From Candidatus Bathyarchaeota archaeon A05DMB-5 (GTDB lineage: Archaea; Thermoproteota; Bathyarchaeia; Bathyarchaeales; Bathycorpusculaceae), in assembly GCA_019685655.1 (NCBI GenBank), contig JABFQP010000005.1, forward strand, positions 1-64,000: a DNA stretch of 64,000 bases, read 5' to 3'. The notes beneath the pieces were generated by a model. The model was given only the letters and a program-made list of their open reading frames with translations, searched no databases and was not told where the DNA came from. The position numbers and the translations under genes were made by a program. This document shows positions 29,966-55,070 of this stretch, in pieces. Within the stretch, counting starts at the first letter, position 1, and each line of letters opens with the position of its first letter.

Positions 29966-29986
29966 GCTGCCTTCTCCCCTCAGCAA

Positions 29987-33279: not shown

Positions 33280-34065
33280 TTAACCCTTTTTGCCGCCTCT
33301 TAAAATTTTCTTAGATTTCAGCTTAAAATTTAGAACGATAGCACCCACCACTATTATTGCTATAACAGCTATAACAGCTATAACCAATATCCAAAAAGCC
33401 CCTGCATCTTGAGATGATTCCGCAAAATACTTAAAAAATGCATTTTTAACAGTTGGTATCTGTTTTATTCCTGGATAGTAATAGACTGCTGTCCATTCTT
33501 GGTCCCATTCTATAAAAGTTTCGGCTAATGTGTCTTTGACTATTTTGAACTGAATTTGGCACAGCGTGCCTGATCCGTTAAAAGTCCATGGTTCCTCTTC
33601 TTCGGGTGTTACGTATGTGCAACCCCACATAAGAAGTTTGTGTGTAGCATTAATATCTGTAAATGTTACATCCGGAGCAACAATGTCCCAACCCTTCTCT
33701 TCGATAGACTTAAAAACATGATCAGACGGTCGCCAAGCGGAGGAGTAACTTAGGATGGTCTTATCATAGGCTATGCCAATGCCCCAGCCTATTAAGTTTT
33801 CAACATTGTTCACTGAGACATTCATAAAAAATGTTGAGCCAGCAGAAGTCTCATTAGAATAAAATATAAAATCTGATGTGCCAAAACTTCGAGGGTTAGT
33901 TGAAGCAGTCCATTTTACAGGGTAACCATCAGGACCCGGATTAATTAATGATACTATAGGAGGAGACGCGTTATTAAGAGTATGAGCTGCCTGTATTGGG
34001 TATGTCGTAATAGCAATTAAGAGATATAAAATTATCCCTATTGTTTGAATTTTCTTTTTAATCAT
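33280..34065 (-). CDS. Membrane-anchored single cohesin-like module protein
   Basis: 261 residues from the ATG at 34065, which has GGTG 8 bases upstream; the open frame to 34287 overlaps the neighbouring gene and is not needed. Signal peptide (about 1-25), one NPGPDGYP-type module (about 38-215; FIFYSNETSAGSTFFMNVSV, WRPSDHVFKSIEEKG, WTFNGSGTLCQIQFKI), then a membrane helix and basic tail. No dockerin. It is the simplest form of the module in this window, just one copy on an anchor. Confidence 0.75.
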   Translation of the reverse strand: MIKKKIQTIGIILYLLIAITTYPIQAAHTLNNASPPIVSLINPGPDGYPVKWTASTNPRSFGTSDFIFYSNETSAGSTFFMNVSVNNVENLIGWGIGIAYDKTILSYSSAWRPSDHVFKSIEEKGWDIVAPDVTFTDINATHKLLMWGCTYVTPEEEEPWTFNGSGTLCQIQFKIVKDTLAETFIEWDQEWTAVYYYPGIKQIPTVKNAFFKYFAESSQDAGAFWILVIAVIAVIAIIVVGAIVLNFKLKSKKILRGGKKG

Positions 34066-34157
34066 AGTTTTCACCATAGGTGTTCTGTTATTAAGTACGC
34101 TACACCGAATCTTTCTAATATTAACATATATTAACGCATTGCATTCTTCATAGTGCT

Positions 34158-35315
34158 CTAGCGGGCTGTTTGTAAGCGCTTCAACTTTCGAAATACAAAA
34201 GGCGTCGCCAACACTAAAACAACCAAGATTACATAAATTATCAACAAAGTGCCTAAGGATGTTGAAAACCACAAAGATATAAGCCACATAGCATATTCAA
34301 ATGAAGTTAACATTTTTTCGATTGTTATTGTAGTTTCATACGTGTTATTTGCAATCTCAGTCTCGAATTCTAGTGGTTCAGCATAAACTACAAGTTGATA
34401 CGTGCCAAGTGACATATTTTGAGGGACATCCCACACATATTTAAATCGATCTGATTCACCGGCTCCTAATGTTAAGTCGCTCCTCACAAGTTCAATGTCA
34501 TCAACCTTCAAAGTGAAATTGAAAGTTTCAATACCGTTTCCGTAGTTTTTGAAATTGATGGTTATTGTTAAGTTTTCACCTACATAAATTTTATCTTTTG
34601 ATATTTCAACAGTTTCAATTGCAATGTCCTGAATGGGTAGCGGTATTTCTGCACTAGCACTAGTTACGCGAACTTGGGCTGGTTCAGCCTTAATTTCTCT
34701 TTTCTCTTTAAGCGGGTATAGAAACACACAGCTGTCCAGCGAGCCAGGTGCGCTTCCAGGGGCTTCCTTTATCACAATTATGTTTGTTTGGTAATATTCC
34801 CCTTCTGGAGGAGTTGCCAATATTGTAAAATTCATCTTGCACAAAAGGCCTTTTCCTGAAACGCTTACTGGATAATACGGTGGATCATTTCCAAAATACA
34901 TGGTTACCATTCCAGCTTTTACGTACCCCATTCCTTGCGACTCTTCGATAAACTGCATGGCGGATATTAGGATTGCACCATCGTCTTCCGCTGTTTTGAA
35001 AATGTGATTGTCTGGGAACCAGCCCCCCGTGAAATTAATTATGCTTATATTCCATGAAATATAGATCTGCCAACCATACATGTCTGTAACGTCTTTAATG
35101 TAAAAATCAACTGTAAACACACTTCCAACGGGGTATTCAGTCGCGTTGAACTCGAATTTAAGGCTTTGGTCGATAGGATTCTCTATTCTCATAGTCGCAT
35201 ATTCTTCTAATAAGCCTGAAACTTTGTTGAAAGTTAAGGGGGAAAATGCAAACAAGATAATAGAGGATATAAGAAAAACTTTGTATAATTGTTTAAGCCG
35301 AGGCAACTCGATCAC
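34158..35315 (-). CDS. Membrane-anchored cohesin-like plus CARDB protein
   Basis: 385 residues from a GTG; no clear ribosome-binding site, and a TTG three codons on is possible. Signal peptide (about 10-32), a divergent cohesin-like module (about 50-200; VGSVFTVDFYIKDVTDMYGWQIYISWN, GKGLLCKMNFTI), a CARDB domain (about 225-335; NLTITINFKNYGNGIETFNFTLKV), a C-terminal membrane helix and basic tail. No dockerin. It belongs with the anchored scaffold-like set. Confidence 0.75.
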   Translation of the reverse strand: MIELPRLKQLYKVFLISSIILFAFSPLTFNKVSGLLEEYATMRIENPIDQSLKFEFNATEYPVGSVFTVDFYIKDVTDMYGWQIYISWNISIINFTGGWFPDNHIFKTAEDDGAILISAMQFIEESQGMGYVKAGMVTMYFGNDPPYYPVSVSGKGLLCKMNFTILATPPEGEYYQTNIIVIKEAPGSAPGSLDSCVFLYPLKEKREIKAEPAQVRVTSASAEIPLPIQDIAIETVEISKDKIYVGENLTITINFKNYGNGIETFNFTLKVDDIELVRSDLTLGAGESDRFKYVWDVPQNMSLGTYQLVVYAEPLEFETEIANNTYETTITIEKMLTSFEYAMWLISLWFSTSLGTLLIIYVILVVLVLATPFVFRKLKRLQTAR

Positions 35316-35368: not shown

Positions 35369-37375
35369 TTAACATGTTTTACCAAAGCTCATCACTACGA
35401 GTATGATGTCACCCATAGTTATTCTTCCGTTTTGGTCTAAGTCAGCGTCAGGAGTCCATCTTGGATGCCCAGGATAAGTGCCAAAGGCGGTTACAATAAC
35501 GTTTATGTCGTCCATGCTGACTCTTCCATCACCGTTGATGTCACCCATAATTTTAATCTTAACAGTTCCATCTGCCAATATGTTGTCTGACAGGTTCATT
35601 TCAAACGGAACAGTTTCAGCCTCAGCAGAGATAGTGTAGTTGTGACAAGGTGTGACTCCTTTTGTATCCCAGACAAGCGTTACTGTAGTTTCCGTGTGCG
35701 GAGGTAAGTCTGCCACTGTAGTTTGATTAAACATGGTGCTGTCATATTTTCCTCGAACATTGAAGGTTTCTGTTAGATTGCCGTTGTTTCTAACAGTGAC
35801 GTTTACGTAGACCAACCATCCAGCATAAGCAACATTGGGATAAACTTCGATTTTTACTACGGCTACGTCACGTATGAGCCCTATAAACATTCCATGATAA
35901 ACCTCATGCACTATAGGCTTTCTAGTGGGGTCTTCAATATGCGTATCGGTTAGATTTATCGGACTGACACCCATAGCTTCTACATGGAAAGTTATAGTGG
36001 CAATTGTCACTGGAGTATAAGTTGTTATTGGATTCGGATAAGTCAAGTTTACCCAGATGTATCCACTTTCGTCATCGATTGAGATCTTCTTTGTAGGCAT
36101 TTGACCTTGTACTGAAGGAATGTTAACTTGTAATTCCAAGAGAACTTCGCGAGTATAAGTCAGGTTGAAAATTACCATCTTCATGTTCTCAATGTCGGCT
36201 ACTGTTACGTTTATGGTGAAGTTAGTGCATGGCACAAGTGACGGATCTATGACCTCCGAAGGATCAATGCTTAATTTTGCAATTAATATATTACTAAAGT
36301 ATCCACTGCCTTTCGTGTGTGCGATCGGTAGGTCAAACGAATCGTAAAGGTTGTCATCAGCAATTGTTATCGGAGTATCCCCGAAATCTAACACCTCAAA
36401 AGTTATTTTTGCGAGTTCGCCATCTCCAAAACCCCCGTTTTCTGCACCAACTAGGTAACAACTAATCGATATTTGTCCATGTGTTGCATTGTAATTACTC
36501 AGAATGTCAAATGCAAAAGCTGTCGTTCCAATTGATTTCAGAAAATCTCCTTCGAACACGTTTGTGGCGTTTAATATTTGGTTTTTGTAGTAGATCTTGA
36601 CCTCCCAACTGTAAAGGTCTGTAGCATTAAAGACTTTTAGGCTCATGTTAAAGCTACTTGTTGGTACAAGAGAGACATCAACCACTCTTTCTGGTTCAAA
36701 TGTTAAATGGGCAATTTTTGGAACAATTGGATAAAGATATTGATAATAGCCGCTACCGAGCGAAGGAATTATTGTTCCAGCAGGATGCTGATACAATGCT
36801 GTCCACTCAGGGTCAAACGCAAACCATGCAACAACCTTAGGACTAGTTTCGCTTACTCCTTTTATTATTCTAAAACGAATTTGGCACAGTGTACCGGTTC
36901 CATTAAAGGTCCATTCGGGTTCACCCATGATATAAGTGCAGCCCCATTTTATGATTGTGTGCGTTCCATTGATGGATTCAATGGTTGGAGACGGAGCAAT
37001 TATCGTCCATCCCATATCCTGAACTGGTTGGAAAATGTGGTCTGGCGGGCGTCTTGAGCCATTGTATGCTAGTTTAGTATGGTCGAATACTATTCCTATT
37101 CCCCAACCCTTCATTCTCTCAGCGTTAGTTACAGTGACATTCATGAAAAAAGTATCATCAACATCGGTTTCATTTGAATAAAATATGAAGTCTGAAGTGT
37201 CAATATATCTCGGAGGACCCGCAGTCCAAGAAGTTGGCCAGCTTGCTGGACCAGGATTAATGAATGAATACTCTGGAGTTGGCGATGCATCTGTTTTCTG
37301 TGTAGTGGAGTTAAGAACTATTGTCGCAGCTAGCATTAACAATATTAAAGTTGCACAATATATTTTTGTTTTCAA
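35369..37375 (-). CDS. Secreted protein: three cohesin-like modules, CARDB, C-terminal dockerin
   Basis: 668 residues: signal peptide (about 1-30), NPGPASWP-type module (about 37-212), two further cohesin-like sandwiches (about 220-360 and 362-500; DLYSWEVKIYYKN and KMVIFNLTYTREVLLE), a CARDB domain (about 505-605) and a C-terminal type I dockerin-like module (about 608-668). The dockerin has two calcium loops, GDINGDGRVSMDDI and DADLDQNGRITMGDI. No membrane anchor. Having both cohesin-like and dockerin modules, it could be an adaptor scaffold. Confidence 0.8.
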   Translation of the reverse strand: MKTKIYCATLILLMLAATIVLNSTTQKTDASPTPEYSFINPGPASWPTSWTAGPPRYIDTSDFIFYSNETDVDDTFFMNVTVTNAERMKGWGIGIVFDHTKLAYNGSRRPPDHIFQPVQDMGWTIIAPSPTIESINGTHTIIKWGCTYIMGEPEWTFNGTGTLCQIRFRIIKGVSETSPKVVAWFAFDPEWTALYQHPAGTIIPSLGSGYYQYLYPIVPKIAHLTFEPERVVDVSLVPTSSFNMSLKVFNATDLYSWEVKIYYKNQILNATNVFEGDFLKSIGTTAFAFDILSNYNATHGQISISCYLVGAENGGFGDGELAKITFEVLDFGDTPITIADDNLYDSFDLPIAHTKGSGYFSNILIAKLSIDPSEVIDPSLVPCTNFTINVTVADIENMKMVIFNLTYTREVLLELQVNIPSVQGQMPTKKISIDDESGYIWVNLTYPNPITTYTPVTIATITFHVEAMGVSPINLTDTHIEDPTRKPIVHEVYHGMFIGLIRDVAVVKIEVYPNVAYAGWLVYVNVTVRNNGNLTETFNVRGKYDSTMFNQTTVADLPPHTETTVTLVWDTKGVTPCHNYTISAEAETVPFEMNLSDNILADGTVKIKIMGDINGDGRVSMDDINVIVTAFGTYPGHPRWTPDADLDQNGRITMGDIILVVMSFGKTC

Positions 37376-37453: not shown

Positions 37454-39019
37454 CTAGTATTCTTTTCCAAAGTTGCTAACAACTACTACGACATCACTCA
37501 TGTCAACTCTGCCGTTATTGTCTATGTCTGCGCGGGGGTCCCAGTTTGGTTTTTCCGGGGTTGAGCCAAAAGCTGTCACTACAATGATTACGTCTGTCAT
37601 ATCAACGCGTCCATTACCGTCAACATCTCCGTTGCCTTGAGGGGGTTGTTCATACACGGTGATGATTTTGCTTTTGTAGCTTTGTTGTCCTTCTGAATCC
37701 TTTATTGTTAAGGTTACGGTGAAGTTGCCTCCTAGCAAGTATGGGTGATTAACGGTTGGTGTGGTGACGTTGGCAATGTAGCCATCACCGAAGTCCCAAT
37801 GATAACTGATTATTGGTGGATATCCAGTGCCGTTCCAACCCAGTGTTGATATGCTAGCATCAAAAGTTACTATCTGAGTTACGTAGGGAAGATTAGGAAG
37901 CCATGTGAAATCGGCTTTTGGTGGGATATATACGTGAATATCTACTGATTTTGATGTTGAGTTCCATAAGCCTTCGTTGTCAGTTACGTTTAAGCTGACC
38001 ATGAATGTTGCATTCGCGGTGAATACATGAGTAACTGTCGGGGTTGTTTTGATGACCGCTGGTGTTCCATCACCAAATCGCCATTCATAACGGATTATTG
38101 TATCGTTATAGCCTTGAGCCAAAGAGCCGGAAGCGTCGAAGGTTATTGTCATGTTGACGCCGGCTGGCATAGGAGAATACTCAAAATAAGCGACTGGAGG
38201 CACAGTTTTTGGCTGTACGCCAAAAGTTAAAGAGTTTGAAACTTGATCTCTATTGTAAGCGGTGGCTCCATAAATGTAATAGGTTCCTGGTTCTGCGTAT
38301 AGAAGCGAAAATTTCATGTCGAAGTTTGGCGGGCTAAGGGGCGTCACTGTACTTGATAATGTCCAAGAGCCGCCCAGTGAGCTAGTTATCAAGAAAGTTG
38401 TGTTTTTCTCTGGGCAGTAAGGATAACCGTCTTCTTTTGGTGTTTGGGTGAGAAGGCTTGCGTAGAGGGTAGTAACTCCTAGAGGTGAGTTGCTAAAAAC
38501 TTCGAACGAGGTTATGAGTGACTGTTCAGTTTGGGGGGGTGTCCATTCGTAGAAGGGGAAGTATGCCTTGCATGGGGCTTTGTTTGAGTATTCTATGTAT
38601 ATGGCTATCATGACGAATTGAGGATCGTTGCTGTAGTTTCTCCATTTAATTTTGTAATAAGCTGTGGAGCCAAGTATGAATGATTCTTTCGGGTTTCCTT
38701 GAACATCACATGTGTATGCCTCTGTTATGTTCACTTTCCAGTTGGCGGTTTGTATTGGGCCTGTCTGAACTGTTCTTAATACAAACGGTGTTTGGGATGG
38801 CGAATTAACTTGGATTGCTACTAATGCATCTGTCAGTGGAGAGCCGTCTAGTGTTACATTCCCAGTTATTTGAACCGTGTCTCCTACATAGTAAATTTGT
38901 TTATCTGTTGAAATGTTTAAAAATAGGCTTGGTTGGGCTGAAACGACAGCTGCAAAAAGAGTAGTAAGCAGTAACGCTAATGCTGCGACTTTTAAGCGGC
39001 GAATATTTTTGTGTGTCAT
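37454..39019 (-). CDS. Secreted protein with PKD domains and C-terminal dockerin
   Basis: 521 residues: signal peptide (about 1-28), a macroglobulin-like beta-sandwich (about 32-110; DKQIYYVGDTVQITGNV), a domain (about 120-250) whose GVTTLYASL...YPYCPE..TTFLI matches the end of the 628-residue neighbour, two PKD domains (about 275-360 and 365-455; YEWRFGDG, YHWDFGDG) and a dockerin-like end (about 458-521; GDVDGNGRVDMTDV, ADIDNNGRVDMSDV). No membrane anchor and no catalytic domain recognised. Likely a structural or binding component. Confidence 0.8.
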   Translation of the reverse strand: MTHKNIRRLKVAALALLLTTLFAAVVSAQPSLFLNISTDKQIYYVGDTVQITGNVTLDGSPLTDALVAIQVNSPSQTPFVLRTVQTGPIQTANWKVNITEAYTCDVQGNPKESFILGSTAYYKIKWRNYSNDPQFVMIAIYIEYSNKAPCKAYFPFYEWTPPQTEQSLITSFEVFSNSPLGVTTLYASLLTQTPKEDGYPYCPEKNTTFLITSSLGGSWTLSSTVTPLSPPNFDMKFSLLYAEPGTYYIYGATAYNRDQVSNSLTFGVQPKTVPPVAYFEYSPMPAGVNMTITFDASGSLAQGYNDTIIRYEWRFGDGTPAVIKTTPTVTHVFTANATFMVSLNVTDNEGLWNSTSKSVDIHVYIPPKADFTWLPNLPYVTQIVTFDASISTLGWNGTGYPPIISYHWDFGDGYIANVTTPTVNHPYLLGGNFTVTLTIKDSEGQQSYKSKIITVYEQPPQGNGDVDGNGRVDMTDVIIVVTAFGSTPEKPNWDPRADIDNNGRVDMSDVVVVVSNFGKEY

Positions 39020-39131: not shown

Positions 39132-41018
39132 TTAAGGCTTCCTTATGTTGAATGTACTGAATACTTCTGGACAGTACGGGACTCCGCCGTTCCACGGTAA
39201 GTCTGTGTATGCGTTTGCGTAGACTGTGGCAACTCCTACCACAGCGTTTGTCGGCATTGGCACTGTAAAGTCTCTAGTGTATGTCTTAAACTCGTCAATC
39301 GGTATGTGATATTCGCCCCAGCCAACTGTTGTTGCGTAGGTTGCATAGCCTATGAAGAATCCTAACTCGTCGTACACGGTTACTGTCAACACGACTGGTC
39401 TTATTTGCATGCTTAATGTTCTATACTCAACTGTGAACTCCATGTCCGGTGGGTGTAGCTTGTTCTGATAGTATTCTGTGTACTTGGAGTAGACGTTCGT
39501 TATTTCTACAGGCCACCATACCATGAAGCATAGTGTATCGTTCTTGATTTGTTCAGCAACCTCAACCGTAGCTATTACACACCATTGTCCGAAGACCCTT
39601 TCTACAGGGTTAACGCATGGCCACGGTATCCTGAATTTAACCATGGCAATGCCGTCTTCGTTGGTGTAGGCTTCTCTGTAGATGTAGAATTCACCGTGGC
39701 GTATTTCGAATGCTACAAGTTTCATTTGAACTGGCCATTCATTGTAGAGAACGCGGGCATAGAGTACGACTTCTTGTTGAGGCCCGAACATGTCGCTTGG
39801 GTTGTGTGCTCCTTGACCACCATACGGATAATCGTATTGTGTGTAGAGGTCGATGTCCAAGCCAAGAGTCTTAATTGGGCATCTGTATTGTGCGTGCTCA
39901 GATACGCCAAGAGGAACTTGAAGACCGTAGATGTCGTATATCACTTCCTCTTTGACTGGAAGTGTCGTCCAACATTCATCTGGGAATATTGTCTCATAGA
40001 CTGCGTTGAAGTGCACTCTAAAGAGCATTCCCTCTCCAGTTGGGAATGGTGGAATGTATCCGCTGCTGCCCGGCACTATTACTGCGCCAACGAGCCACTT
40101 GTTGTAGCAGAACGGAAGTGCAGGGTCACCATGGAAGTCATTAAAGGCAAAGTAGAGTATAGACTCGTCTCCATCTACAAAGCCATTAAGCCATGTTCCA
40201 GTTTCATAGTATGTAGGTTCGAGGCATGTTGTGTTGAACCACAGTGCAGCTTGGAAAGCGACTGCGTACCAGCCAGATTCGACATCTCTGACCCAAATTT
40301 CAAATGCGACATCTTCACCAAGCGCGGCTGCCTTATAGGTTGCTGGTTTAACATAGAAAGTTGGTGACGGAGGCGCTACCCACTCGACTTTAACATTTGC
40401 AGGATTCAGATTTGGAACTTCTGAGCCTGTTGGGTGGAAGTACACTGATGTCCAATCAGTGTCCCAAGTGATCGATGTCGTGAGCAATGGACTCAGCCGA
40501 GAGACGCCTTGAATTATCTCAAATTGAATTTGAGCCAATACACCATCACCTGTGAAGGACCATTCGGGGTCACCCATGATGTAGGTGCAACCCCACTTCA
40601 GAAGCGTGTGAGTGGGATCTATTACCTCAGTGCTCACGGATGGCGCAACGATGGTCCAACCTTGATCTTCAGCGTATTTGAAGATGTGGTCTGATGGACG
40701 CCAAGCTGAGACATAGGAAAGCTTTGTGTGGTCAAAGACTATGCCAATACCCCAACCTTTCACATTCACAGCACCAGTTATTGTGATGTTAATGAAGAAT
40801 CTTTTGCCGTATTGGTCTCCTGTAAAGAAGAAGTTTTCTGTTCCAATTGTGCCTGGATCTGGGGCTGAAGCAGTCCACTTTGCTGGATAGCCGTCTGGAC
40901 CTGGATTTATTATGCTTAAAGTTGTTATTGCAGCTTTTGCAGTGAAAATGTTGAGTCCCGCTAGCATTGATGTCATAAGCAGAGCAATTACAATGGCAGA
41001 GATTGTTTTATTTCTCAT
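39132..41018 (-). CDS. Secreted protein with two cohesin-like modules, no anchor or dockerin
   Basis: 628 residues: signal peptide (about 1-29), an NPGPDGYP-type module (about 37-212), a second cohesin-like domain (about 218-370), then about 250 residues of beta-rich domains, the last resembling part of the 521-residue dockerin protein (GVATVYANAYTDLPW, YCPEVFSTFNI). It ends without membrane helix or dockerin, which is unusual here; it may be held by other proteins. The shared promoter-like element (41068-41097) stands upstream. It precedes the Opp genes in map order but is transcribed after them. Confidence 0.75.
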   Translation of the reverse strand: MRNKTISAIVIALLMTSMLAGLNIFTAKAAITTLSIINPGPDGYPAKWTASAPDPGTIGTENFFFTGDQYGKRFFINITITGAVNVKGWGIGIVFDHTKLSYVSAWRPSDHIFKYAEDQGWTIVAPSVSTEVIDPTHTLLKWGCTYIMGDPEWSFTGDGVLAQIQFEIIQGVSRLSPLLTTSITWDTDWTSVYFHPTGSEVPNLNPANVKVEWVAPPSPTFYVKPATYKAAALGEDVAFEIWVRDVESGWYAVAFQAALWFNTTCLEPTYYETGTWLNGFVDGDESILYFAFNDFHGDPALPFCYNKWLVGAVIVPGSSGYIPPFPTGEGMLFRVHFNAVYETIFPDECWTTLPVKEEVIYDIYGLQVPLGVSEHAQYRCPIKTLGLDIDLYTQYDYPYGGQGAHNPSDMFGPQQEVVLYARVLYNEWPVQMKLVAFEIRHGEFYIYREAYTNEDGIAMVKFRIPWPCVNPVERVFGQWCVIATVEVAEQIKNDTLCFMVWWPVEITNVYSKYTEYYQNKLHPPDMEFTVEYRTLSMQIRPVVLTVTVYDELGFFIGYATYATTVGWGEYHIPIDEFKTYTRDFTVPMPTNAVVGVATVYANAYTDLPWNGGVPYCPEVFSTFNIRKP

Positions 41019-41128: not shown

Positions 41129-42220
41129 TTAACCACTCACTGCGTAGCATGCAACATAATGAGAATTTCCAACATCCACAAGAGGAGGCTCCTCCCTACG
41201 ACATATATCCATCGCTAAAGCACACCTCGGATGAAACCTACACCCACTTGGAGGATTAATCGGGCTCGGAACCTCACCTTTTAAAGGGGCCCTTTCTCTG
41301 CGTTTGGTAGGGTCCGGAATTGGCACCGAACCTATCAAAGCCTGAGCGTAAGGATGCAAAGTATTTTTGAAAATCTCTTCAGTACGCGCATACTCGACAA
41401 TTTTGCCCAGATACATAACGGCTACTCTGTCGCTTATACACTCAACCACGCTTAAATCGTGACTTACAAACAAATATGTCAAATCGAAATCTTTTTGCAG
41501 TTTCTCAAACAAATTCAGCAACTGCGCCCTGACAGACACGTCCACAGCGGATGTGGGCTCGTCTAAGACTATAAATTCAGGTTGAGTAACAATTGCCCTT
41601 GCTATGGCTATTCTCTGTCTTTGTCCTCCACTAAATTCGTGCGGATACCTATAAAGCTGATTAACGCTTAACCCTACACTCTCTAATGTTTTAATAACTC
41701 TTTCACGTGCGCTGGCTCCCTTGGCAATTCCCTGCACTATCAATGGTTCAGCAACTATGTCTTTTACAAGCATTCTAGGATCTAAAGAAGTTGTTGGGTC
41801 TTGATAAACAATCTGCATCCGTTTCCGTAATAGCTTAAGTTTCTGTCCTTTAAAAGCTGTCAGATCATACTCTCTGCGTAATTCATTCAATCTCCGTGTA
41901 AGCGCCAACAATTCTCTTCTAGAAGCTTTCTTCTTTCGAGCTTCATCAATCTGCATGTCCAAAGATGTTATTTCTTTGATAACTTTTTCTGGAGCGCCCA
42001 AAAATATGTGTCCACCGTCAGCATCAAGTAACCTGAGAACAGTTTTTCCAAACGTTGTTTTTCCACATCCCGACTCGCCGACTAATCCGAAACATTCGCC
42101 TTTGTGTATGGTGAGGGTTACGTTGTCTACAGCTTTTACTTCTGCGACCTTCCTCTTAAAAACACCGCCAAGCACTGGATAGTATTTTTTCAGTTTTTCT
42201 ACATGAACTAATGTGCTCAT
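41129..42220 (-). CDS. oppF: Oligopeptide ABC transporter ATPase, OppF/DppF type
   Basis: 363 residues. Walker A GESGCGKTTFGKT (about 48-60), Q-loop in MQIVYQDPTTSLDPRM, signature FSGGQRQRIAIARA and Walker B FIVLDEPTSAVD are intact. The C-terminal oligopeptide/dipeptide domain (GCRFHPRCALAMDIC) is present. A charged helical insertion of about 45 residues (LDMQIDEARKKKASRRELL onward) lies between Walker A and the Q-loop. It overlaps oppD by 4 bases. With OppD it powers peptide import. Confidence 0.9.
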   Translation of the reverse strand: MSTLVHVEKLKKYYPVLGGVFKRKVAEVKAVDNVTLTIHKGECFGLVGESGCGKTTFGKTVLRLLDADGGHIFLGAPEKVIKEITSLDMQIDEARKKKASRRELLALTRRLNELRREYDLTAFKGQKLKLLRKRMQIVYQDPTTSLDPRMLVKDIVAEPLIVQGIAKGASARERVIKTLESVGLSVNQLYRYPHEFSGGQRQRIAIARAIVTQPEFIVLDEPTSAVDVSVRAQLLNLFEKLQKDFDLTYLFVSHDLSVVECISDRVAVMYLGKIVEYARTEEIFKNTLHPYAQALIGSVPIPDPTKRRERAPLKGEVPSPINPPSGCRFHPRCALAMDICRREEPPLVDVGNSHYVACYAVSG

Positions 42221-43491
42221 TTTTTATGTCCTCCATAGAGATGGCAAGCAACGAAATGATCTTCCTTAACCTGTAGAAATTCAGGTTTAACAGTTTGGCA
42301 GATTGGCATTGCGTAGCTGCATCTTGTATGGAATCGGCATCCTTTTGGTGGATTAATAAGACTGGGAACCATACCAGGAATGGATTTGAGCTCTTTTCCT
42401 GGTCGTGGGATAGATTCAAGCAGAGCGGTTGTGTATGGATGCATGGGTTCTTTAAAAAGTTCGTTTACATCAGCTAATTCGACGACGTTTCCAGCGTACA
42501 TAACGGCAACGCGTTCACATAACTGTGCAACAACTCCTAGATCGTGAGTAATGTAAAGTATTGATGATTTGTAAGTTTCTTTCAAGTACTTTATCAATTC
42601 GAGAATTTGAGCTTGGACTGTAACGTCAAGGTTTGTCGTGGGTTCATCACAGATTAGAAGCGTGGGATTACATGCAAGAGCCATTGCAATCATCACGCGC
42701 TGCGCCATTCCACCGCTCAATTCATGAGGGTACATTTCAGCAACTCTTTGCGGATCTGCTATCTGCATGGACTTTAATATTCTGATAACTTCTTGTTTAA
42801 TCGCATGCTTCAACCATTTCTTGAATCTGTTGACTAGTGGAATTTTTGCGAGAAAACGCACGTAAAGCGAATCAGGATTCTGCAACATTTTCTCGTACAC
42901 TGTTACTGTGAAGCTTCTTTTTGTTGAAGACTCACTTTTAAGCTGTTCAATTCTCTCTGTTAGTTCTTTGATTTTTTCTTGGTTCTCCTTTTCTCCTTTC
43001 ATCTTTAGTTTTTCTATCTCTGTCTCAATATTCTTTAGTTTTTTGTTTAATTGTTTCTCTTGCGCCTTCTTTATTTCGTCAAGTGCCATTTTTAGCATTT
43101 CTTTCTTTCTATGTTGAAGTAGTGCTTCACCAATTTGGTATTCAACTGTATAGACAGGATTCAAATAAGCTCTTGGCTCTTGGAAAACCATCGCTACTTC
43201 ATCGCCGCGTATTTCCCTAAGAAAACTGTCCTTTTGTTTCACTAGATCTACAGGTTTTCCATTGTAAGTGTAGATTATTTTTCCACCTTCAATTACTCCC
43301 GGCGCCGGAACCAGTCCCATTATTGAAAGGCTTGTTACACTTTTCCCACAACCGGTTTCTCCGACAAGTCCAAGTACTTCTCCGGCTTTTATTCCTAAGT
43401 CAATTCCGTCTAGAGCTTCAACCACTCCTTCGTAGGTATAGAATCTTAATAGCAGATTCTCGATTTTTAGTATTTCATCTCTTATTACCAT
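42217..43491 (-). CDS. oppD: Oligopeptide ABC transporter ATPase, OppD/DppD type, with coiled-coil insertion
   Basis: 424 residues, about 90 longer than usual. Walker [15 protein letters not shown]-loop [12 protein letters not shown], signature [14 protein letters not shown], Walker [13 protein letters not shown] and the C-terminal [14 protein letters not shown] are all present. Between Q-loop and signature there is a Lys/Glu-rich coiled coil (about 140-195) and a linking helical stretch to about 245. That is where the helical subdomain touches the permease. It begins 1 base after oppC. Confidence 0.9.
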
Positions 43492-43492
43492 T

Positions 43493-44653
43493 TTATCTTC
43501 TCCTTAGTGTTGGGTCCATGATGTCTCTTATGGCATCTCCAAGCAAGTTCCATCCAAGGGAGAAAAGAAAGATAAAAGCGCCAGGTATGACCCATATATA
43601 CCAATATCTAATTAGGCTACTACCTGTTCCCATGTAGGTTTGGCTTTTTTCTACTAGTTGCCCCCAATCTGCAAAGTCCATCTCGGCTCCAACCCTTAGA
43701 AAACTTAGGGCTGCTGCAGTCAAAACTATTGAGCCTATGTCCATTGAGGCTAGAATCAATATTGGGTAGACAGCGTTTGGTAATATGTGACGGCTTATTA
43801 TTCTAAAGTCTGAGCAACCTGAAGCTTTGGCTGCTTCTATATAGTCCTCAGATCGTACTCTCAGCACTTCGCCACGAATTACTCTGGTGTATCCTGGCCA
43901 GCCTACTAGGACTAGCGCTATTAGTACTTTGTCAAGTTTTGTCATAGAAAAGGAGATTATGTTTACATTTGGGAGGTTTCCTGTAAAAATCAACACTGAG
44001 ACTATTAAAGTGATTATTGCTGCGTCCTGTATTACGACCCATTTCCAAGATGGCCCTCCTTTCGAAATCATTAAGCTTATAGTTAAGATAAGGGATATTA
44101 TGGCGAATATTGGAAGCATTTCTCTTAGAGTTATACTTAGTGTTTGGGGAAGGGCGAGAGCAAAGGCCATAGCTAACACTAAACCAGGGAAAATTATGAT
44201 TATGTCTGTAAAACGCATTAGAATTTCGTCGATTATTCCCCCGTAGTAGCCCGCAAGCAAGCCTACAGTTATCCCTATTATCAGAGATAACCCCACTACA
44301 TAAATTCCTACACGGAACGCAGTAATTGCTCCCCAAACAGCTCCGTAGTATATGTCGAAGCCTTCTGGAGTTAAACCAAATGGATGAGCTAAACTTGGCG
44401 GCTGAGGCTCTGTAACATACGAAACTCGTGGGAGTATAAAGGGATTTTTACCTTCATACCCTGCAATGTCCCAAGAGGGGTTGGGAGGAGCCAAGATTGG
44501 GGCAAGAATGCCAACCAGAGCAAAGAATAGGATTATGCCAGAACCCATTAGTGATAATGGACTTTGTCTTATCCGGTACAACATGAATTTTATTTCTTTT
44601 ATTGTTGGCGATGGAACTTTTTCTTTCTTTTCTTTTGACTTTTTGAAGATCAT
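43493..44653 (-). CDS. oppC: Oligopeptide ABC transporter permease, OppC/DppC type
   Basis: 386 residues against the usual about 300. N-terminal membrane helix, then the OppC linker (HPFGLTPEGFDIYYGAVWG) and the permease core. The EAA loop is in EAAKASGCSDFRIISRHILPN (about 285-305). About 70 additional residues with two hydrophobic segments lie between the permease helices and the EAA loop (about 180-250). It overlaps nothing; oppB ends 3 bases before it. Confidence 0.9.
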   Translation of the reverse strand: MIFKKSKEKKEKVPSPTIKEIKFMLYRIRQSPLSLMGSGIILFFALVGILAPILAPPNPSWDIAGYEGKNPFILPRVSYVTEPQPPSLAHPFGLTPEGFDIYYGAVWGAITAFRVGIYVVGLSLIIGITVGLLAGYYGGIIDEILMRFTDIIIIFPGLVLAMAFALALPQTLSITLREMLPIFAIISLILTISLMISKGGPSWKWVVIQDAAIITLIVSVLIFTGNLPNVNIISFSMTKLDKVLIALVLVGWPGYTRVIRGEVLRVRSEDYIEAAKASGCSDFRIISRHILPNAVYPILILASMDIGSIVLTAAALSFLRVGAEMDFADWGQLVEKSQTYMGTGSSLIRYWYIWVIPGAFIFLFSLGWNLLGDAIRDIMDPTLRRR

Positions 44654-44656
44654 GTT

Positions 44657-45730
44657 TTATCCCAACCTTATTCTTGGATCTATGTAGGCGTATAAAATGT
44701 CAACTATCAAGTTTGAGAAAACAAACAAGAATGCTGTGAAAAAGGTAAACCCGACAACTGAAGCGATATCAGGCGCTCCTCTTTCGCCTCCTGTCGCAGC
44801 GGCTGCAGCCCATCTTCCAACGCCGTCAAAGCTGAATACTGTCTCGGTTATTATTAGTCCAGACATTAAACCAGCAACCATTAGTCCAGAAACTGTTACT
44901 ACAGGTATTAACGCATTTCTTCTGGCATGTCGATTTATCACTTCGCTCATTTTTAGTCCTTTGGCCTTTGCGGTTATTATATAGCTTTTTGTTAGAGCCT
45001 CAAGCATGGTCGAACGTGTGAGCCTTATGAGCCCAGCAACGTTTATTGTTGTTACAACAGTGATGGGGAGGACCATGTGTATTAATGCGTCTAATGTTAT
45101 TTCGTAGCCGTATGGTCTTCCATTTATCAACCCGTTCAGCAGTCCGTCCACCGTTAACAGCCCTGTGTATCGCGTGAAGAGACCTGCGTTATATATTGTG
45201 TTTTCGTTTGTTTTAGAAACCCGCCCAACCATGACGGTCCCCGTTAAGGCGAAAGTTATTGACAGAAGTATTATTCCTAGCCAGAAGGATGGAAGTGAAT
45301 ATCCACTTATTGAGAGCAGACGTGTTACGTGGTCAAGTGGCTTGTTTCTATGAACGGCGGACTTTACTCCTAGAAAAACTCCAATTAGAATTGTTATTGG
45401 AGCTATAAAGATGGCGAGTTCTATTGTTGCTGGCCACCGACGCAACATTACTTGAAGAACCGGCCCTTTTTCCAAACTGCGAGAGTATCCCATGTTCCCT
45501 TGAAGAACTTGGCTTAGCCATGTTCCGAATTGTTCAAAGGCGGAGCGGTCTAAACCATAAATTCTAATGTAATTTGGAATATTCGCTATGTCTTTTTCGC
45601 TTCTTATGTAAAGAAACGCCCTCTGTTCAGGAGTGAATAATTGGGTTATCACGAAAACAAGTAAGATTGCACCTAAAATTGTGGGAAGTATAAGGATAAG
45701 TCTTCTTATAATATATTCCTTTAGTCCCAT
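44657..45730 (-). CDS. oppB: Oligopeptide ABC transporter permease, OppB/DppB type
   Basis: 357 residues, six membrane helices. Typical N-terminus (YIIRRLILILPTILGAILLVFVITQL), MGYSRSLEKGPVL-like segment, and the EAA loop ALTKSYIITAKAKGLKMSEVINRHARRNALIPV. First gene of the oppBCDF set and 194 bases downstream of the peptide-binding protein gene. It forms the membrane channel with OppC. Confidence 0.92.
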   Translation of the reverse strand: MGLKEYIIRRLILILPTILGAILLVFVITQLFTPEQRAFLYIRSEKDIANIPNYIRIYGLDRSAFEQFGTWLSQVLQGNMGYSRSLEKGPVLQVMLRRWPATIELAIFIAPITILIGVFLGVKSAVHRNKPLDHVTRLLSISGYSLPSFWLGIILLSITFALTGTVMVGRVSKTNENTIYNAGLFTRYTGLLTVDGLLNGLINGRPYGYEITLDALIHMVLPITVVTTINVAGLIRLTRSTMLEALTKSYIITAKAKGLKMSEVINRHARRNALIPVVTVSGLMVAGLMSGLIITETVFSFDGVGRWAAAAATGGERGAPDIASVVGFTFFTAFLFVFSNLIVDILYAYIDPRIRLG

Positions 45731-45924: not shown

Positions 45925-48303
45925 TTATAGGTGCCACGTGATGCTTGTTTTGCCGAAGTTGGCGATTGTGTTGACTACGTCGCCCATGTCGATTTTTCTG
46001 TCTCGCCATCTGTACATTGGCGAGTCGTCAACGTCGCAGTAGAAGTTCCATCTTGGGTGGAATACTGGCATTCCTTGCTTGCCCGCGTATGAACCGAAGC
46101 TGCCGATTATGGCGATTATGTCGTCCATGCTGACTTTGCCGTCGAAGTTGACATCCCCGACAAAGTAACCTTCTGTACCAGGTGTATTTGTCATTGGCCA
46201 CTTCCACATGTCGTAGCCGAATATTCCTGGAGCCAGTGGGTTGTAGTAGCGTCCTTGGACCCAGTCTCTCATGTAGCCTCTTCCGGTGGCTACGAAGAGT
46301 GGGACTGTGGGCACTTCATTGTAGAAGATGTTTTCAATTTGGTAATATATTGCTTGTCTTATTGGGCCGTCTGGCGAGTATAGTCCTTGCTCTACTAGAG
46401 AGTCTACTGTTGGGTTGCTGTAACGTTGTGGATGAGCGAAGGTTCCTTGGCTGTGGGCGTACGGATAAGCGAAGTTGTGGATGTCTGCGTAGTCTGCTAG
46501 CCAGCCGATCATGAATGCTGGCAGCATGTGAGCGTCCATGTCGGTTAAGTATTGGCTCCATGCTGGTCCTGCTGTGTTGGCTGTGAATGGCCAGCCATTG
46601 TCTCCTGCTACCTTGTTTATTGAAGTTGCTAGTTGTGTGGCGATTGCTTGTCTGATTGTGTTTCCAGAGTTATAGGTGATGTAGACTGTGAAGCCTACGC
46701 TTGTGAGCGGTGTTCCTCCGAAGCTTGCTGCAGCAAAGTAGCTTGCAGCTAAGGATTCGTCATAGTAGTATTTTGGTATTGAGCCGTCTATGTATGGGAA
46801 GCCTCCAGGAGCGAAAGTGTTTGGTTGGTAGGCTTCGCCGAGCAGCTGGTCTTGAAGTATCATTGTGAAGTTTATCAAGTGCGCAAAGGCTTTGCGCACG
46901 TTTACGTTGCTGAAGAAGTTCCTTGGAATACCGTCAGCGTAAAGCTCGTCTGCCGCATAGATTATTCCGTAGCGGTTGTCAGGAGTAGGCTCAATGTCAA
47001 AGGTCATGTGGAAGGAGTTCATGACCAATCCGGGTATTGGATAGTTCAATCGTATGCCTGATAAGGTTGGGCCATCCTTGTTGTTGCCCACATGTAACTC
47101 GCGTACACGTGCACGTGGAACAGCAGCAAAATCTGTGTCTCCGGCAATCAGCTCGGCGATTCCGGTCGAAGTAGCTACTTGTCTCTCAGTAATTCTTTCA
47201 AGGTATCCTTTAGGACTTATGCATGTTGGCGGAATTGGACTGTCTGGATATGGCGGATGTGGATCCTGTGCAGGCCAACCACCCCAGTAATCGTCGAATT
47301 TGACCAGGGACCAACCGTATGACCACTGCAGCCAGTCTAGTATGTATGGTCCTGTTCCACACATTACTCCCGGGTCTGCAACGTCCGGTATAATGTCCAT
47401 TGCTGGTAGTTGTCCAACGTCTGGGTTCCAGTAGTTGAGCCATGTTGTCCAGTCTCCGTCCCATTCTCCTGGGTGCGTGGGGTCAACTGCTTGAGCTGTG
47501 GGACCCACATAGTCCAGTAGCCAGCTCTTGCTCAGTATTGAAGCCCAAGACTGGCTTATCACTTGGAAGAATATTCTCAAGGGATAGCCAAGCGGCAACG
47601 CTCCAACATCGTTCCAGAATGCTGCGCGTGTTCTGCCATACCAGTAGCTGCCTGGGTCGTCGTCGAAGAGTTTGACTGGCGCAAAGGATACTGAGCCTCC
47701 TGGGGTTAAGCCTTGGTTTGCGATGTTAAGCCAAACGTGTGTGCTGTTGCTTTGCACAGCCTGGTTTATCGGGTTGGACGGGTCTGAAGGCCACGTTGGG
47801 TCGGCCCCATAAGTGTTGAACAGCGGCTCATAAATCATCCACTGCGGACCACCAACATAGTCAAGAACCATCCAACGCTCAAAACTGTGCTCAACATCCT
47901 CAGTCGTCAAATAGTACTGCGTGAAAGTTATCGTGCCCAAGTCAGACCTGCACCAAGGATGGAATGGTACACCAACGCGGATTTGGAAGTACACTGTAAA
48001 GTTCGTGCAGTCAGGCGCAGCAGGGTCTGGTGGTGCAACCCATACCTGTGTTGCCAGTTTCGGTATGAAATAGTCGAATCTTTCACCATCAAAGTATATC
48101 AATGGTTCATAAACGTTGAAGATTAATTCGGCGCTGGCTGTGTCGTAACAGTTAGCAGGGTCCAAAGTAGCTGGACCGCCACCCGTGATTGTGTCGATTA
48201 CAAGCTCGTTTATTGGTGTCGCAGCATAAGCAACTTTTGGCGATATAACAAGTGGCATCAATGCAAATAATGCAAGACTAACGATTAGAAGTTTCTTGTT
48301 CAT
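45925..48303 (-). CDS. oppA: Peptide-binding protein (SBP family 5) with C-terminal dockerin
   Basis: 792 residues: signal peptide (about 1-27), then a full family 5 solute-binding fold (about 33-715; ATLDPANCYDTASAELIFNVYE, PFHPWC..., DVEHSFERW, NVRKAFAHLINF). The end (about 722-785) is dockerin-like: GDVNFDGKVSMDDIIAIIGSFG, and a second calcium loop with an insertion (DVDDSPMYRWRDRKIDMGDV). No lipobox and no C-terminal membrane helix, so the dockerin is the only visible attachment. Located directly before oppBCDF. Delivers peptides to that transporter. Confidence 0.9.
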   Translation of the reverse strand: MNKKLLIVSLALFALMPLVISPKVAYAATPINELVIDTITGGGPATLDPANCYDTASAELIFNVYEPLIYFDGERFDYFIPKLATQVWVAPPDPAAPDCTNFTVYFQIRVGVPFHPWCRSDLGTITFTQYYLTTEDVEHSFERWMVLDYVGGPQWMIYEPLFNTYGADPTWPSDPSNPINQAVQSNSTHVWLNIANQGLTPGGSVSFAPVKLFDDDPGSYWYGRTRAAFWNDVGALPLGYPLRIFFQVISQSWASILSKSWLLDYVGPTAQAVDPTHPGEWDGDWTTWLNYWNPDVGQLPAMDIIPDVADPGVMCGTGPYILDWLQWSYGWSLVKFDDYWGGWPAQDPHPPYPDSPIPPTCISPKGYLERITERQVATSTGIAELIAGDTDFAAVPRARVRELHVGNNKDGPTLSGIRLNYPIPGLVMNSFHMTFDIEPTPDNRYGIIYAADELYADGIPRNFFSNVNVRKAFAHLINFTMILQDQLLGEAYQPNTFAPGGFPYIDGSIPKYYYDESLAASYFAAASFGGTPLTSVGFTVYITYNSGNTIRQAIATQLATSINKVAGDNGWPFTANTAGPAWSQYLTDMDAHMLPAFMIGWLADYADIHNFAYPYAHSQGTFAHPQRYSNPTVDSLVEQGLYSPDGPIRQAIYYQIENIFYNEVPTVPLFVATGRGYMRDWVQGRYYNPLAPGIFGYDMWKWPMTNTPGTEGYFVGDVNFDGKVSMDDIIAIIGSFGSYAGKQGMPVFHPRWNFYCDVDDSPMYRWRDRKIDMGDVVNTIANFGKTSITWHL

Positions 48304-50352: not shown

Positions 50353-50502
50353 CGCCAAATCCTACCAAACACAGTCTCGTATATTTAAAAACGCATACCA
50401 AATATATAAATTTGGGATAGAAAGCCAGAAAAGTGTTTAAAATAACATGATAAACGATAGAAATTAAAGTAAGCACAAACTATAGAAACTGCAGGTATCC
50501 TT

Positions 50503-51091: not shown

Positions 51092-54000
51092 TTAGTACAC
51101 TTTTCCAAAGTCTACTAAGATTATTATTATGTCGCCCATTGTAACTCGTCCATCGAGATCTATATCTGCCAGCGGGTTCCATCTTAGATGCCCTAAATAG
51201 GTGCCAAAGGCATCCACAACTATCATCAAATCATCCATGTTAATCCTTCGGTCAAAGTTTACATCTGCAATGTGAGCTGGTAAGATTTCATAGTATCCAT
51301 GTTGGATGCTGTGAGTAATTCGTTCTCCTTCATCGCTCATTATTAGAGTGTCATCGAGTTTCAAATCGCAAGTGGACTTTGGTTTGTCTAGCCCTCTAGG
51401 CTGATACTTCGCTCGGAAAGTTATAGTAGCTATTGTTCCTGTACCGCTAGGCCACTCCGTCCATCCACCTTCTTCTTGAGGTAGTAGAACAACACCTACA
51501 ATTATGTTGTCTCCATAGAAAGGATCGCCATATTCAACGTAGTAAAAGAAAAGCGTTTCACCATGTTGCTTCAAGAAAGACCCCTCACTAACGCTTACTA
51601 CTTCCAACAATGTGCTATTGAACTGTAGCCTAAACTGAACACCTGCTGTTCTCCAACCTACACTTAGGTTGCTTAAGGTTATGTTAATGTTGAAAGTTTC
51701 GTTCAATCTAAGAGCTTGATAGCTGTTTGGTTCCACTCGCATTGTGGGTTGTGGAAGCGGCACGGCATACTCAAGCCATGGGCTATATAGGACGTAGTCG
51801 CTGACGTTGTCTCCCAAACCAAAATGTGGACCATAAGGCTCACCCATATACTCCCAGCTTGTCTCATGATATGGACCTGTAGCGTCGCCCCACCAGTTGA
51901 AACGCGCATCAAGAACGCCTGTTCCCCCGTTCAAAATGCCGTATTCGTCATTGCTTTGTATGTTATTGAGGTTAACGTAGATGCCAGCAACATCTACGGC
52001 TGATTCGATGTAGATGCCGTGTCCAAGGTTATTGAAAAGGGTATTACCTTTAATGGTTGCAGTAGTTATCGAGCTTACCAAACGGATGCCGTGTTGCCAT
52101 CCAGAAACGATATTGTTAGTTATTGCGGCGGTGATTTCACCAGCAGGCTCGTATTCTGGAAAGTCTCCAATAAAAATGCCGTCAGCGGATGTTATTCTAT
52201 CGCCTGAAAGTTGGTTGTTTTCTATTTTCACTGTGATGAACGCATTTTCAGCCCAGCTTTGAACACCTGCCGCTGCGTTTTCATATCCTGACGCATCATG
52301 AACCCCACTTATAACATTGCCCGTGAAAGTCGCCGTCCAAGTTCCCGCTTTTGTATACTGTGCCCATACACCTAATAGCCCTATGCTTCCACCGTTCACA
52401 ATGTTTCCTTGCGCCGAACCACTACTGTCTTGATAGATAATTCCAATTTGGCAGTTAGTTATGATGTTGTTAGTGGCTGAACCACTGCTGTCCATAAATA
52501 GGATTCCAGCACCCCACCAAGTTTCGGGAGTGTAAATGTGGTCGCTTATCCTATTACGGTTTATAGTTCCTTTCGCACCGTCCATAACAACAATGCCATT
52601 TTGAACTTCGTCTCCGGAAGGCAAAGGTCCTCGACCGGTGAAGTTGTTGTCATGAATGTTAATTGTGAGTTTGCTACCGTGGACATCGATGCCGTTTTTG
52701 TCGTAGTTTGTTAGCGTAGAGCCTTTTACTTCAACAGTGACGGTATTAGCTACTGCAGAAAGATAGATGCCGTAACCTCTTACTGCGGTACCAGCATCTG
52801 TAACGGTTATCCCTGTAATATTGACTGAGTCTATCAAACCGCCAGTTTCGCGATAAAAGATTCCCGCGACGAAATCTGCGCCTGTTGGTCGGGTAGTCAC
52901 GCTTTCCCCGTCTATTTTCAGTTTTTTCACGATTACACTGCTTCCAGTGGCGACGTTTGCAACAATAATGCCAGCTACTTGTTTAGTTGTGCCCCACCAA
53001 TGTCCGTTAAGCACTGTGGTAAGTTTGTCTGCAGAAGAAGGCTTTACAATCGTACTGTCGCCCATGCCTTGAAGAGTCAAACTCTTAGCAATTACTACTT
53101 GTTCATCGTATGTCCCAGAGTGGACTATCACTGTATCGCCGGAACTTGCTTCACTGACAGCCTCTTGAATAGTACCCGTTGGGTTTACATGATAAGTTCT
53201 TGGAGTAGTTGCAAACGATGCTCCAAGCCATGGACTGTAGTCAACATTATCACCAATTTCGCCTCCAAGTCCAGACGGGTTTGTTGTGGAATGGTAAGGT
53301 CCGCTTGCGTTGCCCCACCAGTTGAAACGTGCATCAAATGTTGCATTGTCTGCATTGTAATTGGCGCCCCAGTTGAAGATGCCATATGGGTTGTTGTAGA
53401 TATTGTTATAATGTGCATAAGATAGCATGCCTTTTGTTATTTCAATTGCTTCGTAGTTGTTGTAAATTTCGTTGTTTTCTATGGAAACTGTGGAAGGCAT
53501 CATACTGCCTTGATTGTAATACATCCAAATATCAACAATTATTGCTGCAGATGACCAAAGTGGACTTGGATGAGTGTTGTTGCAATTATATATTTTATTT
53601 CTAACTATCTCAGCTACAGAGGGACCGGTGTAGTCTTCGATCTCAATTCCGTAGTTAACTTGATTGTCTAGACTGTAGACTTGTCCGATTATCTCGTTAT
53701 CTTGTATTATGGAAGTCGCATTGTTTGAGTATATGCCAATTCTTCCGAAATTTTTGATTAAGCACTTATCAACTGTTACAACAGAATTGTCCCAAAAAGC
53801 TACTGCAGCCGAATACATGTCGCCTATTGTGTTTGGAGACGCTATACAGTTTTTGATCGTTCCGCTGGAATTTTCATATAATATTGCATAGCTTCTAGTG
53901 CCGGCAGGTATGCCTAATCCTTGACCCTCTATATCTAAACCTTCTAAGACAACATTTAGGGCGTTTTCAACAAATATTGTAGCTTGCCTATTTCCATAGT

Positions 54001-54763
54001 TTGTAGCACGCATTTGCGCACCACTGATGACCGGGTTGCTTGCGGCTTTCACAGTGAGACTTTTGTTAATGTACAGGGCTTCACTGTATGTTCCATCGTA
54101 AACATAAATTGTCTGCCCTGCGCTTGCAGCGTCTATCGCAGCTTTAATTGTGTCGTAAAACAGTCCTTGATCTTCAATTTCGGTAGTCCACCAAATCCAA
54201 ATGTCAAGCTTCACTGGAAAATCTCCGCTCGAGACCACAATGTCAATGTCGGATAGTTTACGGTCACCATTAACGTCCTTAAATATCACCACTAAAAACT
54301 CAACTTGATTGCCTACGTCTCGGTTGAACCGAACTTTTCCATACTGTGTCATAGAAGCACCGACGGGTAAAGTGACTCCTCCAACAGGACCCGTGATAAC
54401 TTCCACTTGATAGTCTAGATATGAAGAAACTTCGAGTGGCGGAGCAGGATACCATATCACGCCATCAAGAGACCACCAGCCAGTGCCATCTTCCGGAGTA
54501 AGCGTCCCGCCTATCTCTTTAGCGAAAACGCCTAAAAGCAGTCCTGTTAACTCTTCGCTACCAACATTGGTTGCTGTGGCTTTATCTGTGAAATTTGATC
54601 CGCCTTTGGCACCAATCATAGCGTTGATTTTGTTTTGTGCATCATCCACTATCAGACTTGGTCCACTGGGACTTGCTTCAACAGATTTTGTCGTTAGCAT
54701 AATCGGTATAGTGCTTGAAAGGAGCATTAAAAGCAAAGCTATTGCTGTTATTTGGTTTTTCAT
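51092..54763 (-). CDS. Secreted double beta-helix protein with cohesin-like module and dockerin
   Basis: 1223 residues from the ATG at 54763 (GGGGAAAGGAAA upstream; the frame to 54820 adds 19 unneeded residues). Signal peptide (about 1-32), a first domain, two right-handed beta-helix regions (about 180-520 and 530-980), each opening with a DAASAGQTIYVYDGTYSE-like turn and joined by repeats of ARFNWWG.A.GPYH. A cohesin-like sandwich follows (about 1005-1150; FNINITLSNLSVGWRTAGVQF), then a dockerin (DVNFDRRINMDDL, ADIDLDGRVTMGDI). No anchor. It is possibly a polysaccharide-binding or -cleaving member of the assembly. Confidence 0.85.
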   Translation of the reverse strand: MKNQITAIALLLMLLSSTIPIMLTTKSVEASPSGPSLIVDDAQNKINAMIGAKGGSNFTDKATATNVGSEELTGLLLGVFAKEIGGTLTPEDGTGWWSLDGVIWYPAPPLEVSSYLDYQVEVITGPVGGVTLPVGASMTQYGKVRFNRDVGNQVEFLVVIFKDVNGDRKLSDIDIVVSSGDFPVKLDIWIWWTTEIEDQGLFYDTIKAAIDAASAGQTIYVYDGTYSEALYINKSLTVKAASNPVISGAQMRATNYGNRQATIFVENALNVVLEGLDIEGQGLGIPAGTRSYAILYENSSGTIKNCIASPNTIGDMYSAAVAFWDNSVVTVDKCLIKNFGRIGIYSNNATSIIQDNEIIGQVYSLDNQVNYGIEIEDYTGPSVAEIVRNKIYNCNNTHPSPLWSSAAIIVDIWMYYNQGSMMPSTVSIENNEIYNNYEAIEITKGMLSYAHYNNIYNNPYGIFNWGANYNADNATFDARFNWWGNASGPYHSTTNPSGLGGEIGDNVDYSPWLGASFATTPRTYHVNPTGTIQEAVSEASSGDTVIVHSGTYDEQVVIAKSLTLQGMGDSTIVKPSSADKLTTVLNGHWWGTTKQVAGIIVANVATGSSVIVKKLKIDGESVTTRPTGADFVAGIFYRETGGLIDSVNITGITVTDAGTAVRGYGIYLSAVANTVTVEVKGSTLTNYDKNGIDVHGSKLTINIHDNNFTGRGPLPSGDEVQNGIVVMDGAKGTINRNRISDHIYTPETWWGAGILFMDSSGSATNNIITNCQIGIIYQDSSGSAQGNIVNGGSIGLLGVWAQYTKAGTWTATFTGNVISGVHDASGYENAAAGVQSWAENAFITVKIENNQLSGDRITSADGIFIGDFPEYEPAGEITAAITNNIVSGWQHGIRLVSSITTATIKGNTLFNNLGHGIYIESAVDVAGIYVNLNNIQSNDEYGILNGGTGVLDARFNWWGDATGPYHETSWEYMGEPYGPHFGLGDNVSDYVLYSPWLEYAVPLPQPTMRVEPNSYQALRLNETFNINITLSNLSVGWRTAGVQFRLQFNSTLLEVVSVSEGSFLKQHGETLFFYYVEYGDPFYGDNIIVGVVLLPQEEGGWTEWPSGTGTIATITFRAKYQPRGLDKPKSTCDLKLDDTLIMSDEGERITHSIQHGYYEILPAHIADVNFDRRINMDDLMIVVDAFGTYLGHLRWNPLADIDLDGRVTMGDIIIILVDFGKVY

Positions 54764-55070
54764 TTTCCTTTCCCCTATCCTTTTTAGCATAAACGCAAGT
54801 GCAACATAGCGTTTACGCAAAAATATTTTTTAACTCTTCAAAGTTTATAAAATTTGTGAAACTTTTTTCCACATCTCTTCATTTTGTGGACTCTTATGTT
54901 TTAGATGATACGCATATATGAACAAAATAAGCAAAACATAACATCAAAAAGTCTTAAATCATAAGTATTCCTCAACTTTTCTAATCATTTTTAGCACACT
55001 TTAACAATTCTATAAGAGCCTATTATCCAGCATTTTGAACATCTAATGCTTTAAGGAAAAAAGGAGGAAA
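54764..55070. other. 307-base AT-rich gap
   Basis: Lies upstream of the beta-helix dockerin gene. TTTTATAAA (minus strand, about 54844-54852) is a likely TATA box, giving a leader of about 50-60 bases. At 55057-55062 is the T-tract terminator of the subtilase gene. No open frame with support. Confidence 0.5.
55057..55062 (-). terminator. T-tract terminator after the subtilase gene
   Basis: Minus-strand CCTCCTTTTTTCC within 15 bases of the stop. Confidence 0.45.

Follow-up and report, generated by a model that had tools for sequence, protein, structure and literature searches.

The peptide receptor of an Opp-type ABC importer in Candidatus Bathyarchaeota archaeon A05DMB-5 ends in a dockerin and has no other anchor; across its orthologues the dockerin alternates with transmembrane (TM) anchors, and membrane-anchored cohesins are encoded in the same gene cluster. 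We consider it probable that this solute-binding protein (SBP) carries the dockerin in place of a membrane anchor and plugs into one of the co-encoded, membrane-anchored cohesins. The window analysed is a stretch of 64,000 nucleotides, and its relevant features are collected in Table 1.

Table 1. Receptor, importer, cohesin and dockerin features of the window.
Feature	Position	Strand	Evidence
Two cohesins, Ig-like, C-terminal TM with VIPEY motif	31389..32954	-	PF00963 34.4 bits
Single cohesin and C-terminal TM, 265 aa	33280..34077	-	Listed ORF extends to 34287, start probably at 34077; PF00963 20.1 bits, below cut-off
Membrane-anchored cohesin, CARDB, C-terminal TM	34158..35315	-	PF00963 E=2.6e-7, best stretch within CARDB region
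Scaffoldin-like: at least two cohesins, CARDB, C-terminal dockerin	35369..37375	-	PF00963 27.1 bits; PF00404 22.6 bits; CARDB; first cohesin by alignment
PKD-repeat protein, C-terminal dockerin	37454..39019	-	PF00404 30.2 bits, PKD
Unanchored, two cohesin-like modules and C-terminal region, directly after oppF	39132..41018	-	First cohesin aligns with type of 33280-34077 model
OppF-type ATPase	41129..42220	-	PF00005, PF08352
OppD-type ATPase	42217..43491	-	PF00005, PF08352
OppC-type permease	43493..44653	-	PF00528 E=9.9e-26, PF12911
OppB-type permease	44657..45730	-	PF00528 E=7.6e-32
SBP family 5 (OppA-like), 792 aa, signal peptide, no TM/lipobox	45925..48303	-	PF00496 E=2e-30; termini, lipobox test
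C-terminal dockerin of SBP, residues 715-787, two repeats	45943..46161	-	Own-genome profile, AF2 model, solved-dockerin matches
7-residue insertion SPMYRWR in second Ca loop	46003..46023	-	Alignment; similar in three closest same-genus relatives
Beta-helix, cohesin and dockerin protein	51092..54820	-	PF13229, PF00963 31.1 bits; dockerin by alignment/profile
Secreted subtilase (S8), CARDB, cohesin, C-terminal dockerin, 2196 aa	55071..61661	-	PF00082 E=5.5e-56, PF00404 33.5 bits; cohesin by alignment

The receptor matches the Pfam profile PF00496 with 106.6 bits against a curated cut-off of 32.4, and is the sole PF00496 protein in the 1.51 Mb genome. Its gene is followed by oppB, oppC, oppD and oppF, in that order. 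The N-terminus is a cleavable signal peptide, with the cleavage site between ...VISPKVAYA and A. The lipobox test found no lipobox pattern, the first cysteine being residue 52, and the C-terminus is hydrophilic without a TM helix (highest 19-residue Kyte-Doolittle mean 0.36). Reading of the signal peptide and the C-terminus accordingly revealed no N- or C-terminal TM anchor of the archaeal SBP type, which agrees with the claim of an earlier note on this DNA that the protein is held by neither a lipid nor a membrane helix.

The same note had proposed that the protein ends in a dockerin-like module, and both profile and fold comparisons bear this out. Scored with a profile of eight non-SBP dockerins from the same genome, the module reaches 55 bits (E 6.6e-16), whereas none of 2000 shuffles exceeds 8.7 bits; its identity to the aligned dockerins is 40-71%. 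When a profile made only from SBP dockerins is searched against the PDB, solved dockerins rank first (2y3n_B, E=1.9e-9). The AF2 model of the module (pLDDT 74) aligns with 2y3n_B over 60/60 residues (Z 8.7, rmsd 1.8), and every fold match listed for it is to a cellulosomal or cohesin-dockerin structure. A generic EF-hand, named in the earlier note among the possible refutations, was rejected because PDB profile searches rank dockerins ahead of almost every calmodulin-like protein and the profile and fold matches are dockerins.

At residue resolution, the first calcium loop is canonical (DVNFDGKVSMDD; D717-V-N-F-D-G-K-V-S-M-D-D728). The second, D757-V-D-D-[SPMYRWR]-D768-R-K-I-D-M-G-D775, contains the insertion and retains the ligand positions D1, D3, D5, D9 and D12. 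SBP dockerins of three lineages (window 46003-46023; L096:7857-9944 in the genome G131; L048:8925-11336 in G069) seemingly have additional residues at about the same point of this loop, which most other dockerins of the same three genomes seemingly lack. Pfam PF00404 does not reach its threshold on the module, whether the whole protein or only its C-terminal part is scanned; the C-terminal scan gives 16.1 bits against a cut-off of 22.9 (E=0.013) over the first repeat only, so that routine annotation would overlook the module. This cut-off is a scoring threshold and no defining property of dockerins; the dockerin of the G065 orthologue clears it by itself with 27.8 bits.

SBP orthologues were gathered from the family, class and phylum, mostly from metagenome-assembled genomes (MAGs), and both ends of each were read; hydropathy and reading, rather than a trained predictor, served to tell N-terminal anchors from cleaved signal peptides. 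The comparison covers 27 complete orthologues, with a clear dockerin defined as scoring over 40 bits. None of the orthologues with a clear dockerin has a membrane helix (8/8), and all those without a dockerin have either an N-terminal signal anchor or a C-terminal TM helix (19/19, including G209a and G429, which may be cut at the 3' end, hiding any dockerin, and in which the N-terminal helix is present). The mutual exclusion is perfect (Fisher 4.5e-7, uncorrected for kinship). A ninth orthologue with a clear dockerin, G112, is missing its N-terminus and hence stands outside the eight, and two more, G069 and G131, lack a TM helix and end in a degenerate, dockerin-like sequence.

On the SBP tree, N-terminal anchors fall on one side of a branch, while dockerins and C-terminal TM helices are interchanged within the rest. 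Two sister pairs, each with support of 100/100, combine a C-terminal TM helix in one member with a dockerin (G042 and G073) or a degenerate dockerin (G143 and G069) in the other. At least four changes of anchor state are required on this tree, and the dockerin state alone requires at least three gains or losses. Because dockerin and TM helix are mutually exclusive and the dockerin has been gained or lost at least three times, the view that it would substitute for the membrane anchor is well supported by these comparisons. The replacement proposed in the earlier note is largely supported, with orthologues carrying one or the other and closely related pairs swapped. Its premise that archaeal SBPs are usually held by a C-terminal helix or a lipid has to be adjusted, the commonest anchor in the relatives examined being the N-terminal signal anchor.

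The TM-anchored orthologues (G042, G143, G108, G109, G412, G224 and others) share the receptor domain with the dockerin-bearing SBP and, where looked at (e.g. G042), are likewise adjoined by opp permease and ATPase genes; unlike it, they have an N- or C-terminal TM helix and no dockerin. A further arrangement is seen in an SBP paralogue of 1041 aa from G051, a genome of the same genus (L042:9853-12975; G051:C1:949852-952974), whose single chain unites SBP, dockerin, cohesin-like module and another dockerin; such a receptor could act as plug and socket at once.

The stretch from 31 to 62 kb of the window is one cohesin/dockerin locus, with three membrane-anchored cohesin genes downstream of the SBP gene and a dockerin-tagged subtilase upstream. 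The AF2 model of the 265-aa cohesin-TM protein (pLDDT 78) matches cohesins with Z up to 13.9, among them the non-cellulosomal archaeal cohesin 2xdh of Archaeoglobus fulgidus (Z 12.5); unlike 2xdh, this cohesin carries a C-terminal TM helix, and its gene accompanies those of a peptide importer. The protein encoded directly after oppF (39132-41018) has no Pfam match, no anchor and no dockerin. Similar proteins follow oppF in G051 and G076 (homologues L043:16112-18076 and L045:3692-5626).

Cohesins are encoded in all class-list genomes with a clear or degenerate dockerin-SBP (9/9), and a Pfam search of G143, whose SBP has a C-terminal TM helix, found neither cohesin nor dockerin. Within the SBP/opp cluster, TM-anchored cohesins are present in A05DMB-5, G051, G076, G065, G073 and G131. 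The cohesin of 34158-35315 is of the same type as the opp-adjacent cohesins of G076, G065 and G112 (hhalign probability 98.9, E 3.6e-17); in G065 and G112 this type directly follows oppF, TM-anchored in the former and cut off by the contig end in the latter. In G073, a single-cohesin TM gene directly adjoins the SBP gene (cohesin 1e-7). Because its cohesin type recurs beside opp in these three genomes, 34158-35315 is the best candidate partner of the SBP dockerin, with 33280-34077 and 31389-32954 as other candidates. Several cohesins of the cluster are unanchored, which leaves room for a direct partner that is not itself a membrane protein.

To predict a dockerin-SBP simply from the presence of cohesins proved too simple, TM-anchored SBPs being found in several cohesin-bearing genomes. 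G042 and G066 are examples, and having cohesins is therefore not enough to bring about the anchor switch.

Additional features were observed in and around the locus. PEF-like motifs occur at C-terminal TM ends in the window (31389-32954, VIPEY...; 49087-50358, VPEF...) and in L093:4825-5808. A cohesin-TM protein of G076 passes the NCBIfam PEFG-CTERM model (25.5 vs 25 bits), and an exosortase/archaeosortase family protein is encoded in 6/6 genomes tested; the cohesin anchors may be archaeosortase substrates. Large surface proteins share a recurrent C-terminal (P)VGGYS/H-TM-basic tail (window 26114-29986; L051:6472-9408; L094:6763-9765; L097:8754-11750), one TM-anchored SBP (G051:C2) being among its bearers, and this tail is possibly an undescribed sorting or anchoring signal. 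Finally, a putative ATP-dependent DNA ligase predicted from sequence (window 61790-63550; L046:392-2152; L099:6282-8042) flanks the SBP/cohesin cluster in A05DMB-5 and G065; in G073 it is found on the same contig as the SBP. This suggests that the location of the cluster is syntenic and old.

We propose the following mechanism. The SBP would act as the secreted substrate receptor of the Opp importer and, once its signal peptide has been cleaved, would no longer be attached to the membrane. Its dockerin would then plug, in a calcium-dependent manner, into the cohesin of a membrane-anchored protein from the same cluster, which would keep the receptor close to OppBC. These cohesins could hold other dockerin-tagged partners as well, including the upstream subtilase, and peptides freed there would be caught on the spot. 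Cohesin binding, its need for calcium, the exact partner and the benefit are what we infer here, and the fold models of dockerin and cohesin represent single chains, not a complex.

Two features count against docking, namely the 7-residue insertion in the second calcium loop and the missed Pfam cut-off. Together with the more degenerate versions in G069 and G131, they would fit a pair of degenerate EF-hands that bind calcium and lend stability to the protein or its C-terminus without any docking. We regard such a role as very unlikely: the ligand positions are retained, dockerins precede calmodulin-like EF-hands in the profile matches and make up the fold matches, the alternation with TM anchors is perfect, and all genomes concerned encode cohesins. 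Furthermore, a working type II dockerin of Acetivibrio tolerates a 4-residue insertion in a calcium loop (PMC5141474), so the insertion alone is no argument against docking. The lack of an anchor of its own would also agree with a receptor released as a free scavenger, its dockerin inherited by chance, but a dockerin with conserved ligand positions has been kept in at least eight orthologues and is co-encoded with membrane cohesins, which makes this extremely improbable.

A different kind of docking can also be considered, in which the dockerin joins an unanchored multi-cohesin scaffold (39132-41018 or 35369-37375) and the receptor becomes part of a surface or extracellular network linked to the membrane only indirectly. 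Such a scaffold is suggested by the two-cohesin protein without TM helix directly after oppF in A05DMB-5, G051 and G076, and by the cohesins and own dockerin of the scaffoldin-like protein. However, the gene after oppF in G065 and G112 encodes the 34158-35315 type instead, and the SBP neighbour in G073 is a cohesin-TM protein; we judge the indirect arrangement unlikely and favour docking to a membrane-anchored cohesin.

The genes also offer a link to proteolysis. A dockerin-bearing subtilase lies within the cluster in A05DMB-5 and G051, and in G045 the gene of such a subtilase (L047:7541-10072) directly adjoins the dockerin-SBP gene. Elsewhere in the A05DMB-5 genome, L057:2-2314 encodes a secreted M28-peptidase protein with a C-terminal dockerin-type sequence. 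Surface proteolysis coupled to peptide uptake would be an attractive reading of these genes. Only tentatively do we extend it to a cellulosome-like proteolysis-uptake machine, in which membrane cohesins would hold dockerin-subtilase and dockerin-receptor beside OppBC and physically couple digestion to import; we rate this as possible but doubtful.

Type II cohesin-dockerin pairs serve cell-surface attachment in bacteria. The SBP module has the dockerin fold and duplicated calcium loops in common with such cellulosomal pairs (e.g. 2y3n, 2b59); unlike them, its cargo is a transport receptor and not an enzyme or scaffoldin, it has no X-module, and its second loop bears the insertion. Set against a cellulosome, the window encodes multi-cohesin proteins, a dockerin-subtilase and TM-cohesins, components that may assemble, and no cellulases or glycoside hydrolases were seen among the window proteins scanned.

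Dockerin-bearing OppA/NikA receptors are already known as a kind: in ANME archaea, SBPs of the NikA/OppA and TroA type are common dockerin-containing proteins (Chadwick et al. 2022, PMC9012536). The bathyarchaeal SBP fits this description, being an OppA/NikA-type SBP with a dockerin in a cohesin-encoding genome; the likeness, by description, extends to a peptide/nickel-type ABC receptor in a genome rich in cohesins and dockerins. It differs in belonging to another lineage, the relatives named here being mostly Candidatus Bathyarchaeota MAGs, and in that operon, membrane-anchored cohesins, TM alternation and loop insertion are documented. New are the bathyarchaeal members with their co-encoded membrane cohesins, the unusual loop, the alternation of anchors and the protease link, and the comparative evidence for anchor replacement together with co-encoded membrane cohesins exceeds the ANME statement. 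Our literature search found no paper on dockerins of Bathyarchaeia and, apart from the ANME paper, no other description.

Archaea that do not degrade cellulose widely carry cohesins and dockerins, whose role in these organisms is described as unknown (PMC5244752). Receptors that have a TM helix or a dockerin but never both, with membrane cohesins encoded alongside, give these modules a concrete and testable job, the non-covalent anchoring of transport receptors. The anchor swap thereby makes the use of dockerins outside cellulosomes amenable to testing.
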